Source: Acidobacteriota bacterium
Lineage (GTDB): Bacteria > Acidobacteriota > Terriglobia > Bryobacterales > Bryobacteraceae
Direction of reading: 5' to 3'
NCBI GenBank assembly: GCA_016871155.1
Contig: VFZO01000001.1
Span: 32,834-96,833, forward strand
Length of the DNA: 64,000 bases
Positions 55,233 to 63,969 of the stretch are shown in pieces. Each line of letters begins with the position of its first letter. The first letter of the stretch is position 1. The notes under the pieces are model-generated. The model searched no databases, had not been told where the DNA came from, and worked only from the letters and a program-made list of their open reading frames with translations. The position numbers and the translations under genes were made by a program.

Positions 55233-58202
55233 ATGTTCCGGCAATTCCTGGTGTTACTCAGCCCGGCGCTCGTCGCGCAGCCGGTGGATTTTCTGCGCGA
55301 TATTCAGCCGGTCTTCCAGCGGCACTGCGACGGCTGCCACGGCGCGAAGATGCAGTTGGGGCTGTTGCGTCTGGACGCCAGGCAGGCGGCCGCCAAGGCG
55401 ATTCACGCGGGCGATGCGGCGAAAAGCACCCTCTACCAGCGGGTGGCCGGCACGTCGGACCAGGCCCGGATGCCCATGGGCGCCAAGCCTCTGGCCGCCG
55501 CGCAAATCGCGCTCATCAAGAAGTGGATCGACGAAGGGGCGCACTGGCCGGAGGCGGCGTCTGCCCGGGATGCGCAGGTGCAAAAGCATTGGGCGTTCGT
55601 CGCGCCCGTGAAAGCCCCGCTGCCGAAAACGAAGGACGCGGCGTGGGCGCGCCGGCCGGTCGACGCGTTCGTGCTCGCAAAGTTGGAGTCGGAGAAGCTC
55701 ACGCCTTCGAAGGAAGCGGACCGCGTCACGCTGCTCCGCCGGTTGCATTTGGACTTGACCGGCCTGCCGCCCGAGCCAAAGGAGATCGACGCGTTTGCCG
55801 CCAACCGTTCGCCGAATGCCTACGAAAAGCAGGTGGACCGCCTTTTGGCCTCCAAGCACTACGGGGAGCGCTGGGCGCGCCACTGGCTGGACGCCGCCCG
55901 CTATGCCGACTCCGATGGCTACGAAAAGGACAAGTCCCGCGACGTCTGGTTCTGGCGGGATTGGGTGATCCAATCTCTCAACGCCGACATGCCGTACAAC
56001 CAGTTCGTAGTGGAGCAGATTGCCGGCGATCTGCTGCCCGGAGCGACCCAGGACCAAAAAGTCGCGACCGGTTTTCTCCGCAACTCGATGATTAACGAGG
56101 AGGGCGGCATCGATCCCGAGCAGTTCCGAATGGAAGCGATGTTCGACCGCATGGACGCCATCGGCAAGTCGGTTCTCGGCATTACGATTCAGTGCGCCCA
56201 GTGCCACAACCACCGGTACGATCCGCTGACGCAGGAGGAGTACTACAAGATCTTCGCGTTCCTCAACAATTCGCATGAAGGGGCCGCCGTCGTCTACACG
56301 CCGGAGGCCACACGGCAGCGGTCCGAAATCTTTCGCCGTATTCGCGAGATCGAGGCCGATGTGCGGCACAAGGATCCGAACTGGCGATCGAAACTCGCCG
56401 CTTGGGAAGCGTCGATGCAGACCCATCTACCAAAGTGGGAGCCGCTCCGCCCGGACATCGACGATATCTCCACCGGCGGACAGAAACACCGGCAGATGGA
56501 AGACGGTTCCGTCCTGGCCGGCGGATACGCGCCCACCAAGTTCAGCACCCAGTTCACGCTGCGAACCAAGATGCGCAACATTCGCGCGATCCGGCTGGAA
56601 CTGCTGAACGATCCGAACCTGCCGCGCGGCGGGCCGGGCCGGTCCTTGCTCGGTACCGCCGCGCTGACTGAGTTCGCGGTCAAGGCAAGCGCCGATGGAA
56701 AGAACTCGAAGACAGTGCGGATCAAGCGGGCCACCGCGGACGTGAACCCGCCGGAGGCACAGTTGGCGGGCTCCTATTGGGACAAGACCGGACGCAGGCG
56801 CGTGACCGGGCCGGTGAGCTACGCAATCGACGGCTCGGACGAAACGGCGTGGGGCACCGACAATGGGCCCGGCCGGCGCAACCAGCCCCGCAACGCTGTA
56901 TTCGAGCTCGCCGAGCCCATCGACTTTCCCGGCGGAACGGTCCTCGAAGTGTTCCTGACGCAGCGTCACGGCGGCTGGAACAGCGACGACAACATGAACC
57001 ACAATCTCGGCCGGTTTCGCCTTTCGATTACCGATGCCAGGAACGCCGAAGCCGATCCCGTGCCGCCGGCGATTCGCACGCTTATCGGCAAGCAAAACCG
57101 TTCCGAAGCGGAGACCAATGCGGTGTTCAGCTTCTGGCAACAGTCGAACCCGGAGATCGAAGCGCAATGGGCGCGGCATCCGGAAGGCACAACACAGCTT
57201 GTGTTGGAGGAGCGCGCCGAGCTGCGCGAGACAAACCTGCTGATGCGCGGCGACTTTCTGAAGCCCGGAAAAGCCGTGCAACCCGGCGCGCCCGCGTTCC
57301 TTCACGCCATCCCCGAAGGCGCCCCGGTGAACCGGCTGACGTTTGCGCGTTGGCTTGTGGACCGCAACTCGCCGACCACGGCGCGCGCCATTGTGAACCG
57401 CGTCTGGCAGGCCTACTTCGGAACCGGCATCGTCGGGACAAGCGAGGACCTGGGACGCCAGAGTGAAGCGCCCAGCCACAAGGAACTGCTGGACTATCTG
57501 GCGGTCGACCTGATGGACAACGGGTGGAGCTTGAAGAAGCTGCACCGTGCCATTGTCACGAGCAACACGTACAAACAGTCTTCAAACGTCACGCCGGAGC
57601 TGGCCGCGAAGGACCCATACAACCGGCTTCTGGCGCGCGCGCCGCGGCTCCGCGTGGAAGGCGAGATTGTCCGCGACATCGCGTTATCCGCGAGCGGCCT
57701 GTTGAACGCGAAGGTCGGCGGGCCGAGCGTGTATCCGCCCGCACCCGATTTCCTCTTCCAGCCGCCTACCAGCTACGGGCCCAAGAACTGGCACGAAGAG
57801 AAGGGGGCGGACCGCTATCGCCGCGCGCTCTACACCTTCCGGTTCCGCAGCGTGCCGTATCCAATGCTGCAAGCCTTTGACGCGCCAAACGGAGACATGA
57901 GCTGTGTACGCCGCCCGCGCAGCAATACCCCGCTGCAAGCGTTGACCACTCTGAACGAGCCGCTGTTCTTCGAAGCGGCGCAGGCGCTGGCCGCCAAGAC
58001 CCTGGCCGAGGGCGGCGCCAGCGACGATTCCCGTCTGCGGTTCGCCTTCCGCCGCGTGCTGGGCCGCGCGCCCGCGCAGAATGAGAAAGACGCGTTGCTG
58101 ACGCTGTTGTCGAAACAGGCGGGCAAGCAGGACTTACGCGGCGCATGGACCACCATCAGCCGCGTGCTGCTAAACCTCGACGAAGCCATCACCAAGGAGT
58201 AA
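55233..58202 (+). CDS. PSCyt1/DUF1549/DUF1553 protein (planctomycete-type cytochrome c domain)
   Basis: DIQPVFQRHCDGCHGAKMQLGLLRLD, RPVDAFVLAKLESEKLTPSKEADRVTLLRRLHLDLTGLPP, RWLVDRNSPTTARAIVNRVWQAYFGTGIV. Confidence 0.93.
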   Translation: MFRQFLVLLSPALVAQPVDFLRDIQPVFQRHCDGCHGAKMQLGLLRLDARQAAAKAIHAGDAAKSTLYQRVAGTSDQARMPMGAKPLAAAQIALIKKWIDEGAHWPEAASARDAQVQKHWAFVAPVKAPLPKTKDAAWARRPVDAFVLAKLESEKLTPSKEADRVTLLRRLHLDLTGLPPEPKEIDAFAANRSPNAYEKQVDRLLASKHYGERWARHWLDAARYADSDGYEKDKSRDVWFWRDWVIQSLNADMPYNQFVVEQIAGDLLPGATQDQKVATGFLRNSMINEEGGIDPEQFRMEAMFDRMDAIGKSVLGITIQCAQCHNHRYDPLTQEEYYKIFAFLNNSHEGAAVVYTPEATRQRSEIFRRIREIEADVRHKDPNWRSKLAAWEASMQTHLPKWEPLRPDIDDISTGGQKHRQMEDGSVLAGGYAPTKFSTQFTLRTKMRNIRAIRLELLNDPNLPRGGPGRSLLGTAALTEFAVKASADGKNSKTVRIKRATADVNPPEAQLAGSYWDKTGRRRVTGPVSYAIDGSDETAWGTDNGPGRRNQPRNAVFELAEPIDFPGGTVLEVFLTQRHGGWNSDDNMNHNLGRFRLSITDARNAEADPVPPAIRTLIGKQNRSEAETNAVFSFWQQSNPEIEAQWARHPEGTTQLVLEERAELRETNLLMRGDFLKPGKAVQPGAPAFLHAIPEGAPVNRLTFARWLVDRNSPTTARAIVNRVWQAYFGTGIVGTSEDLGRQSEAPSHKELLDYLAVDLMDNGWSLKKLHRAIVTSNTYKQSSNVTPELAAKDPYNRLLARAPRLRVEGEIVRDIALSASGLLNAKVGGPSVYPPAPDFLFQPPTSYGPKNWHEEKGADRYRRALYTFRFRSVPYPMLQAFDAPNGDMSCVRRPRSNTPLQALTTLNEPLFFEAAQALAAKTLAEGGASDDSRLRFAFRRVLGRAPAQNEKDALLTLLSKQAGKQDLRGAWTTISRVLLNLDEAITKE

Positions 58203-59573
<1,371 letters not shown>

Positions 59574-59585
59574 GGCCACCACTCT

Positions 59586-59972
59586 TTACGCCTTGGGCTT
59601 GTACGCGATGCAGTCGATTTCCACCTTGATCACGGGGTTGGCAAACTTCACTTCCACCGTGGTCCGGGCCGGCTTGTTGTCGCCAAACACGCCGGCATAC
59701 ACCGCGTTCATCGCCCCAAAGTCGTTCCCGTCCTTCAGAAACACGGAGCACTTGACGACGTCGGCAATCGATGCGCCCGCCGCCTGCAGAATCAACGCGA
59801 TGTTGTTCAGCACAAGACGCGTCTCGTGCTCAATCGTGCCGTAGCTGAACTCGTTCGTTATGGGGTCGATCGGCACTTGTCCGGAGACATATATGAAGTC
59901 GCCCGCGCGCACCGCGTGGGAATACGGACCACGCGGCGCCACGGCGCCTGGAAAGTGATAGCGTTCCAGCAT
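59586..59972 (-). CDS. RidA family (YjgF/YER057c/UK114) protein
   Basis: GAVAPRGPYSHAVRAGDFIYVSGQVPIDP...TRLVLNNIALILQAAGASIADVVKCSVFLKD...ARTTVEVKFA. Confidence 0.93.
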   Translation of the reverse strand: MLERYHFPGAVAPRGPYSHAVRAGDFIYVSGQVPIDPITNEFSYGTIEHETRLVLNNIALILQAAGASIADVVKCSVFLKDGNDFGAMNAVYAGVFGDNKPARTTVEVKFANPVIKVEIDCIAYKPKA

Positions 59973-59976
59973 ATTT

Positions 59977-61320
59977 CTACTCCACCTGTTTGCGCGCGCG
60001 CGGGCGCCGGACGCCGGACGCCGATGCGCCCGCCGCTTTCTTGGCCGCCGCTGGTGCCCGTTTGCGGGTCGCCGTCTTTTTGCGAACCTCGCCTTCCAGC
60101 TCTTCGATCACGGCAGCCTGCTCCGGTTCCTCGGCAGCCGCGGCCTCAACGCTCGGCGCCGGTTCGGGAGCCTCGAGCGGCTCGGGTGCGGCCGCCTGCG
60201 CCTCTGGCCGCGATTCGGCGGCCGGCTCGGGATCGGCCGGCGGATAGGTGATCAGGCCTCGCACTGCGTCGGCCTCGACACGCACCACGAAGTTGTCCTG
60301 CGCGAACGTCAGAAATTCCGGAAACGTCTGGAACCCGTACTTCTGCACATCGAAGTTCGCGTGGATCTTGTTCATCCAGCCGGATAGATCCTCGGACGAC
60401 GCGCCGTCTTCCAGATCGAGCCGGTAGATGTCCACCACTTGCCGCAGCGCGGCCAGCGCCTCTTCCTTCTTCGGCGCGGGAGTGGCGTCGGCGGCTTGCT
60501 GCTTCACCTCAATCGTCTTCCGACCCTCGGGACCCGTGGTGGCCAGATACCCGCTGGTTTCGAGCTTGTCGATAAAGTCGCTGAAAGCGCCCGTGCCGTA
60601 GGCGCGTTCGTTGAAGCTGGGATCCAGTTGCAGCATCGTGCTCTTCAACAGGCCGAGCTGCGGCTGCACGCCGCGGCGGCGCAGTGTCGCCAGTGCCCGT
60701 TCCAGCAGCGGCAGAGCGTGCGTCAACTCCAGAGGAGCCGACCGGCGGTAGTCCCGGCCGCCGCCATGACGGCGGTCGCCGCCGGAGGACTGCTGCGGCT
60801 GGCGCTGGGAGGAGGATTGCTGCTGCGCCTGCTGTTGCTGCGGGTACTTGGCGTCGTCGAGCAACGACTCATACGAGACGAATTCGTGGCAGTTCTGCTG
60901 CAGAATGGTCGACGTGAAAGCTTTGCCGCCGACGATATAGATAATTTTGCCGTAGGCCTTCAGCTTGTTGACCAGCGGGATGAAGTCGCTGTCGCCCGAA
61001 ATGATCGCGAACGCATTGACGTTTTTGTGGGTAAAGGCCATCTCGAGTGCGTCGAGGGCCAGGTTGATATCGGCGCCGTTCTTGTCGCCGCGCGGCGATG
61101 GCAGCCGCTGGACCATTTGGACGGCGTTTTCGGCCATCTGGCGTACGGCGCCTTCCTGGCGGGACCAGTTCGCGTACGCGAACTTGGCCACAATGTCGCC
61201 GCGCTCCTTGAGCGCTTCCAAACAGAGCGAAACGGCGAACTCTCGCCGCAACGTGCTCTTCACGCCGATCTCGATGTTGTCGTAGTCCACGAAAACAGCG
61301 ATATTCTGTCTTTCCTGCAT
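59977..61320 (-). CDS. NYN-domain (LabA/DUF88) RNase-like protein with OST-HTH/LOTUS-like domain(s) and basic C-terminal tail
   Basis: IAVFVDYDNIEIG...NGADINLALDALEMAFTHKNVNAFAIISGDSDFIPLVNKLKAYGKIIYIVG (NYN acidic residues); Q-rich linker; LGLLKSTMLQLDPSFNERAYGTGAFSDFIDKLETSGYLA (OST-HTH-like); tail KKTATRKRAPAAAKKAAGASASGVRRPRARKQVE. Confidence 0.88.
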   Translation of the reverse strand: MQERQNIAVFVDYDNIEIGVKSTLRREFAVSLCLEALKERGDIVAKFAYANWSRQEGAVRQMAENAVQMVQRLPSPRGDKNGADINLALDALEMAFTHKNVNAFAIISGDSDFIPLVNKLKAYGKIIYIVGGKAFTSTILQQNCHEFVSYESLLDDAKYPQQQQAQQQSSSQRQPQQSSGGDRRHGGGRDYRRSAPLELTHALPLLERALATLRRRGVQPQLGLLKSTMLQLDPSFNERAYGTGAFSDFIDKLETSGYLATTGPEGRKTIEVKQQAADATPAPKKEEALAALRQVVDIYRLDLEDGASSEDLSGWMNKIHANFDVQKYGFQTFPEFLTFAQDNFVVRVEADAVRGLITYPPADPEPAAESRPEAQAAAPEPLEAPEPAPSVEAAAAEEPEQAAVIEELEGEVRKKTATRKRAPAAAKKAAGASASGVRRPRARKQVE

Positions 61321-61344
61321 TAGACTCCCCTTGGTGCGACGGAC

Positions 61345-61743
61345 TTACGCGGGCCTGGCGGCGGAGCGAACGAACGTCACGATTTCTTCGAGCGATGAGC
61401 CGGGCGAAAATACAGCGGCTACGCCTTGGGCTTTCAACTCGCGGGCGTCGTCATCGGGAATGATTCCCCCTACGACGACTGCCACATCCTCCATTTCCTG
61501 CTGGCGGAGGAGCTCCATGACACGCGGAACGATAGCCATGTGCGCTCCGGAAAGAATCGAGAGGCCGATCACCTGGACATCTTCTTGCAGCGCGGCATTG
61601 ACAATCATTTCTGGTGTCTGCCGGAGGCCGGTGTAAATGACCTCCATCCCCGCGTCGCGAAGAGCCCGGGCGATTACCTTGGCGCCGCGATCGTGACCAT
61701 CAAGGCCCGGCTTGGCGACAAGTACCCGGATTCGACTCTCCAT
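61345..61743 (-). CDS. Stand-alone cobalamin-binding domain protein (methylmalonyl-CoA mutase C-terminal type)
   Basis: [64 protein letters not shown]; DxHxxG motif. Confidence 0.93.
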
Positions 61744-62722: not shown

Positions 62723-63181
62723 TTACCCTCCCGCCGATGCGGAGCGGGCTTGGAGCCGTGGCGGAAGCCCGCAGCTACTGCGGCGAATCAGTACGGCGCG
62801 CCGGATTCTTTCGAAGCCCCTGCCGTCTCGGACTGCGCATTCGGTAAGCCGCACAACCACCCACCCTTGGCGCCTCAGGTGCCGGGAAACGCTTTGGTCC
62901 CTTCGCCGGTTCGATTCGATTTTTTGACGCCAGAACTCCGCATTCGACTTTGGAAGCGCTTTGCAGGGGCACCCGTGCCAGAAGCATCCATCCACGAACA
63001 CCGCGACCTTAATCGACGGCCATGCGAAGTCGGGGCGGCCTTTCACCGGCCAGTGTTTTCGGTAACCCTTCAATCCGTTCTCCCATAGCCACCTGCCCAC
63101 CACGCGTTCCGTCGATTTGTTTTCCCGGCTTCGCACCGAAGCCATGATCGCCGAGCGAACCTCCGGGGATACGTGGTCCAT
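62723..63181 (-). CDS. vsr: Very short patch repair endonuclease (Vsr)
   Basis: MDHVSPEVRSAIMASVRSRENKSTERVVGRWLWENGLKGYRKHWPVKGRPDFAWPSIKVAVFVDGCFWHGCPC; start trimmed to ATG at 63181. Confidence 0.93.
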   Translation of the reverse strand: MDHVSPEVRSAIMASVRSRENKSTERVVGRWLWENGLKGYRKHWPVKGRPDFAWPSIKVAVFVDGCFWHGCPCKALPKSNAEFWRQKIESNRRRDQSVSRHLRRQGWVVVRLTECAVRDGRGFERIRRAVLIRRSSCGLPPRLQARSASAGG

Positions 63182-63183
63182 GG

Positions 63184-63969
63184 CTAGGGCGCTCCATGGT
63201 CGCGATTGTCGTCCGGTCCGATCTCTCTGGCCGGGACGAGTTGATAGTGACGCTCCTCCACGACTCTTATCGCGCCCTCCGCCTCCACGAGTTCGAAAAG
63301 GGCGATCACTCCGTTCGGTAGAAACTGGGCGGAAACCGGCCGGCACACCAGGTGCGGAAATTTCTCCGCACAACAGGCGATGTCTTGCTTCGTCTGGGTC
63401 GCCCCTAGTTTGTCCGTCCCGCCCTTGGCTTGAACTGGGATCACGAACTGGCGGCCGGTCTTGTTCACGCCGACATAAAGCTCGTCGACCTCAATCTGTC
63501 CAAGACCCTTGACCGTGGTTCGAAGATGATTTTGGAGCGAGTATGCCGCCACGCCGAGAAAGATGTCGATCAGCCGGTTGTATCGCACCTTTGCGAGCAA
63601 CGCCTGCTCGTCGCCGAGTGAGTGTGCCGTGATGATCTCCGGCGTGGCGTCCGGAATCTTGATCGCCATGAGCTCGCTCCGGGGAATGATTCGGTTAATC
63701 GCGTTCAGGGTGAATCTATATTTCGCCTTGCCAGCGAGTTCGATGGTCCACTCCTCACCTGGCGGAGCCGTCTTAAGGACCTCGACCGGAAGGGCCACCC
63801 GGAATCGAAACGAATAGAGGATATCTCCGGGATTGCTCGGCAACTCTATACCGAGACGTCCAGCCGTCTTTACAAGTTCTTCTCTTGAGAATTCGAAGCT
63901 CCGAACCCACATTTCCGTTTTGAGCCGCGCGTGCGAATCTCCCGGATGCTCGTCCGCATCAATATCCAT
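63184..63969 (-). CDS. Putative type II restriction endonuclease (PD-(D/E)xK-like)
   Basis: GLGQIEVDELYVGVNKTGRQFVIPVQAKGGTDKLGATQTKQD (acidic residues followed by QAK); ends 2 nt before the vsr start. Confidence 0.65.
   Translation of the reverse strand: MDIDADEHPGDSHARLKTEMWVRSFEFSREELVKTAGRLGIELPSNPGDILYSFRFRVALPVEVLKTAPPGEEWTIELAGKAKYRFTLNAINRIIPRSELMAIKIPDATPEIITAHSLGDEQALLAKVRYNRLIDIFLGVAAYSLQNHLRTTVKGLGQIEVDELYVGVNKTGRQFVIPVQAKGGTDKLGATQTKQDIACCAEKFPHLVCRPVSAQFLPNGVIALFELVEAEGAIRVVEERHYQLVPAREIGPDDNRDHGAP

Follow-up and report, generated by a model that had tools for sequence, protein, structure and literature searches.

The locus examined here raises the question of what a bacterium would do with a protein that joins a putative NYN nuclease to two OST-HTH/LOTUS-like modules and a basic tail. 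The gene lies in a window of 64,000 nucleotides, the whole stretch of acidobacterial DNA that was analysed. In the list of open reading frames of the window it is complete, running over 59977..61320 on the minus strand from an ATG start and encoding 447 amino acids. Direct reading of the sequence revealed a probable Shine-Dalgarno element, AAGGGGAG, on the same strand at 61325..61332, 4 nt 5' of the ATG. All motifs quoted in the preliminary description were found in the 447-residue translation (DYDN at residues 12-15, NGAD at 81-84 and SGDSDF at 108-113), as were the Q-rich linker, the two repeat segments, the A/P/E-rich linker and the basic tail. Based on the ORF list, Pfam and a genome search, the whole frame was annotated as an NYN-LOTUS-LOTUS protein. 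It was present in 55 of the 61 related genomes searched, among them all other members of the genus in that set, and this is far beyond chance. The open reading frame is genuine, and the observation that drew attention to it is confirmed.

The N-terminal domain (residues 6-150, 60871..61305, minus strand) was assigned to the NYN (LabA/DUF88) nucleases by Pfam, with an E-value of 1.4e-30, above the curated cut-off, and by Foldseek and alignment. Residues D12, D14, E17, D84, D90, D110 and D112 were invariant across 23 orthologues of 48-83% identity, in an alignment that numbers from residue 2. AlphaFold2, run with 23 orthologues, gave a well-predicted NYN fold and two winged helices, with disorder at residues 159-191 and from about residue 364 to the C-terminus. 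When this model was compared to the PDB with Foldseek, the top match was 2QIP (9.7e-9), followed by the NYN domains of human and mouse MARF1 (from 9.4e-6); the LOTUS domains of TDRD7 and TDRD5 and the bacterial structures 2KPM and 2KZV appeared at lower ranks. Identity to solved NYN domains amounted to 17-23%, and the aspartates of 2QIP fell at D12, D84, D110 and D112. The earlier assignment of an NYN/LabA domain with retained acidic residues is thus borne out by the Pfam match, by the six invariant aspartates, which are active-site candidates and four of which align with aspartates of the nuclease 2QIP, and by a predicted NYN/PIN fold like that of 2QIP. The proposed resemblance to MARF1 likewise finds support in Pfam, in profile comparison and in the predicted structure.

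The pocket of human MARF1 consists of D358, D426, D427 and D452; its NYN domain cuts single-stranded RNA, this aspartate cluster is required for cleavage, and mutation of D426/D427 strongly lowers activity (PMC6294520). Mn2+-dependent cleavage of single-stranded RNA is documented for an NYN protein associated with CRISPR in bacteria (PMC11346440). Where MARF1 has two adjacent aspartates (426/427), the acidobacterial protein has a single one, D84 in NGAD, and for this reason we rate the predicted arrangement of the invariant aspartates into a metal site as likely and not higher. The same apparent lack of an aspartate at one MARF1 active-site position might be taken to indicate that NYN activity was lost and that the protein binds RNA, or acts as a scaffold, without catalysis. 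However, invariance of six aspartates and of much of the NYN domain would be unusual for a dead enzyme, and we consider this loss quite improbable.

The NYN domain is followed by a Q/G/R-rich linker (approximately residues 159-191, 60748..60846, minus strand), which is disordered, with pLDDT below 50, and variable in length in the alignment. Of the two repeats behind it, the second one (residues 285-359, 60244..60468, minus strand) was directly recognized: an OST-HTH/LOTUS match at residues 290-347 had a Pfam E-value of 1.4e-8, above the curated cut-off, and a winged helix was predicted. The first repeat (residues 194-274, 60499..60741, minus strand), with its near-invariant QLGLLKSTM.QLD..F.E..YG, reached only E=0.088 for OST-HTH in the window protein alone. 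In 22 of the 23 orthologues, it matched OST-HTH at E<=1, with a best value of 9.6e-6, and comparison of the profiles of repeats 1 and 2 yielded an hhalign probability of 94.6% (P=7e-8). Furthermore, the OST-HTH domains that Pfam detects in other members of the phylum (for example G240:C85 and G187:C7) line up with the half of the profile that represents the first repeat. On these sequence grounds, orthologues and profile comparison confirm the first repeat as an OST-HTH/LOTUS domain, so that both modules of the preliminary description stand.

Modelled alone, the first LOTUS domain gave a confident winged helix (mean pLDDT 88.6), for which Foldseek was non-specific: generic winged helices scored best (E ~0.01), with 2KPM and TDRD7 lower. 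The isolated domain was no closer to LOTUS structures than to the DNA-binding winged helices of SAMD1, KAT6A and Fur. This likeness would suit a nucleoid-associated protein, in which the winged helices bind DNA and an H1-like tail tethers the nuclease to it, with nascent transcripts or R-loops as its targets; the K/R/A/P-rich composition of the tail, shared by many DNA-binding tails, fits the same idea. Against it, the winged helices belong by sequence to OST-HTH, a family known or predicted to bind RNA (PMC2848206; PMC10226599), basic tails have affinity for RNA no less than for DNA, and Pfam contained no linker-histone or nucleoid-protein family that matched. Overall, we find a nucleoid role unlikely.

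The tail itself consists of two disordered parts, recognized by composition and predicted structure: an acidic A/P/E-rich linker (residues 365-412, 60085..60228, minus strand) and a basic stretch rich in K, R, A and P (residues 413-447, 59980..60084, minus strand). Among 77 complete orthologues, the last 40 residues contained in the median 32.5% K+R and 5% D+E, and the preceding 60 residues 5% K+R and 23% D+E. In 74 of the 77 (96%), an acidic 60-residue stretch preceded a final segment of 40 residues whose net charge was +8 or more, and the charge was kept while the tail sequence changed freely. The same acidic-then-basic tail was seen in most members tested from other families of the phylum, and a long tail of this type was missing from five short single-LOTUS relatives in the phylum (L033-L037). 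None of the 79 neighbour gene clusters conserved in two or more loci showed such a tail, so that base composition does not simply account for it. In one locus of another family (L137), the C-terminus was acidic instead of basic, in a longer open frame of 758 aa that possibly contains a frameshift. Many orthologues (L054, L060 and L118, for instance) carry a short conserved motif, QPxVEGQPTIFEPNPPPPKPKK, ahead of the basic tail; it is absent from the window protein and may be a peptide docking motif.

The preliminary description had called this tail histone-H1-like and suggested tethering to RNA or the nucleoid. The tail is real and its charge conserved, and the comparison with H1 holds for composition and goes no further: the window protein matched no linker-histone family in Pfam up to E=1, and no globular H1 domain, HC-type domain or tail homology was found in Pfam that would place it with linker histone H1 or the bacterial H1-like proteins. 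Homology to histone H1 was therefore rejected, the likeness being compositional only, and nucleoid tethering is without direct support. The conserved, unstructured, positively charged tail is nevertheless the one less usual feature of the protein.

How is the gene inherited? The contig scan confirmed at least 480 relatives, and the best 80 of these at least 480 were kept as loci. These best 80 were nearly all labelled as Acidobacteriota (Bryobacterales, Bryobacteraceae and relatives), with one labelled Acidimicrobiia. Of 200 genomes from the class, 90 had a match to a profile of the LOTUS pair, as did 59 of 247 from the phylum; some of the families in the class, f8 among them, gave none. Within the genus, the NYN domains are over 90% identical. 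Among the matches listed from plasmid and phage records, only the NYN domain was covered, at low identity. Such a distribution is that of a chromosomal gene passed on mostly by vertical descent. The source genome also contains, on contig C82 (L002), a second, partial NYN match in an open frame of 308 aa.

The immediate neighbours are metabolic. Upstream, 24 nt before the NYN-LOTUS start codon, lies the small (B12-binding) subunit of a split acyl-CoA mutase (61345..61743; TIGR00640, E=2e-53), and downstream, 4 nt after the stop codon, a RidA/Rid-family hydrolase (59586..59972; TIGR00004, E=9e-35). All three are on the minus strand and, given the gaps of 24 and 4 nt, are probably cotranscribed. 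Within the bacterial family, counted on whole ORFs over 80 loci (L038-L117), the mutase small subunit adjoins in 55 and RidA in 57; a stricter count for RidA gave 41/75, lower because some alignments end with the NYN domain. A cluster of the methylmalonyl-CoA mutase large subunit recurs in 22 loci of the bacterial family. The RidA family is also named endoribonuclease L-PSP. A functional link of the nuclease to RidA and the mutase subunit was rejected, since in more distant families of the phylum adjacency was found in 0/18 and 0/16 cases, respectively; inherited synteny or a metabolic operon is the most likely explanation of the linkage. Inspection of ten wider regions, nine of them outside the bacterial family, revealed varying neighbours and no common RNA-related one. 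This is in keeping with a statement published in 2010, according to which bacterial NYN-OST-HTH genes are not consistently linked to other known systems of RNA processing (PMC2848206). As the neighbours are metabolic and not RNA-processing, gene context does not point to RNA decay. On the plus strand, at 55233-59573 of the window, a gene for a PSCyt1/PSCyt2/PSD1 (DUF1549/DUF1553) protein stands immediately before a DUF1501 gene. Pairs of this kind are known from planctomycetes and some acidobacteria.

Near the end of the window (62723-63969, minus strand), the genes for a Vsr-type mismatch endonuclease (PF03852, E=2.9e-18) and for a type II restriction enzyme (PADLOC REase_II, E=2e-109) overlap, possibly as part of a restriction-modification island with its methyltransferase beyond the window. 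This pair lies about 1.4 kb from the NYN-LOTUS gene, and weak PADLOC matches to NYN-containing models (LabA-like 3.2e-7, HEC-09 7.9e-4) might likewise hint at a defence or conflict nuclease, of a LabA-like anti-phage or toxin type. However, the model matches are partial, the gene is near-universal in the bacterial family with the high NYN identity noted above, its metabolic neighbours are kept in most loci, restriction genes occur in only 1 of the 80 related loci, and the listed plasmid and phage matches cover the NYN domain alone. On conservation and neighbourhood, a defence system was rejected, and we hold this role to be extremely improbable.

We are thus fairly confident that the protein is an acidobacterial member of the DUF88/LK-nuclease proteins with two OST-HTH domains, encoded on the chromosome, and that it would work alone as a metal-dependent endoribonuclease of single-stranded RNA, with the LOTUS domains as its guide. 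A stand-alone housekeeping role is the most likely one for this predicted enzyme. RNA would be cut by the NYN domain, and the choice and retention of the substrate, probably an RNA that is G-rich or structured, would fall to the pair of LOTUS winged helices. LOTUS domains reportedly bind G-rich RNA, a finding said to be that of Ding et al. in 2020. The analysis establishes the domains, the predicted fold, the invariance of the acidic residues, the conservation of the protein and the charge of its tail, and catalysis and RNA preference are extrapolated from relatives; the literature searched contained no assays of close relatives. The disordered acidic-then-basic tail might add non-specific RNA affinity or keep the enzyme in a ribonucleoprotein assembly. 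These are the simplest ideas, and the role of the tail, like any physiological target, is speculative. It is doubtful, if conceivable, that we are dealing with a phylum-specific bacterial LOTUS ribonuclease whose conserved tail drives RNA granules to form, as a counterpart of the eukaryotic LOTUS proteins by which germ granules and P-body-linked decay are organised.

LOTUS domains are familiar mainly from the germ granules of animals. They are probably bacterial in origin (PMC2848206), and no bacterial NYN-LOTUS protein with a tested function was found in the literature searched. The window protein is a typical representative of a family already described. With its high conservation and its conserved charged tail, such an acidobacterial protein would be a suitable model for the function of the ancestral NYN-LOTUS enzyme.

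The blocks of charge in the tail presumably resemble those in the C-terminus of RNase E. Alpha-proteobacterial RNase E, which forms BR-bodies, is an endoribonuclease tied to condensates via its disordered C-terminus (PMC10412687). This is an analogy only, and the catalytic domains are unrelated. With MARF1/Limkain b1, the protein has in common the NYN endoribonuclease fold and LOTUS domains, but it does not belong to that orthologue group, as Pfam detected no RRM and it has two LOTUS domains versus eight in human. Closer in layout are Arabidopsis DNE1 and MNU1/MNU2, which likewise combine NYN with two LOTUS domains (PMC10226599; PMC9181182). In DNE1, NYN-dependent cleavage of mRNA leaves fragments, and G-rich motifs lie close to the cut sites (PMC10226599); MNU1/2 belong to plant mitochondria (PMC9181182). 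These proteins differ in being eukaryotic and in having decapping or mitochondrial partners, and MNU additionally contains OHA and putative WW domains. The preliminary description, which likened the NYN-LOTUS combination to eukaryotic regulators, was misleading in this respect: almost all bacterial OST-HTH proteins consist of a DUF88/NYN domain plus one or two OST-HTH domains, the stereotypic layout of the family (Anantharaman, Zhang and Aravind 2010, PMC2848206). The acidobacterial protein shows the sequence characteristics of this family, with an N-terminal NYN domain, two C-terminal OST-HTH domains and the conserved acidic residues. As for the bacterial DUF88/LK-nuclease and OST-HTH proteins (PDB 2QIP for the nuclease, 2KPM for OST-HTH), it is widespread and without linkage to known RNA systems. 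It is a member of this described bacterial family, of a type with representatives in animals and plants too, and hence not a bacterial borrowing of MARF1; to the family layout it adds linkers that are long and disordered and, at the C-terminus, the conserved acidic-then-basic tail.
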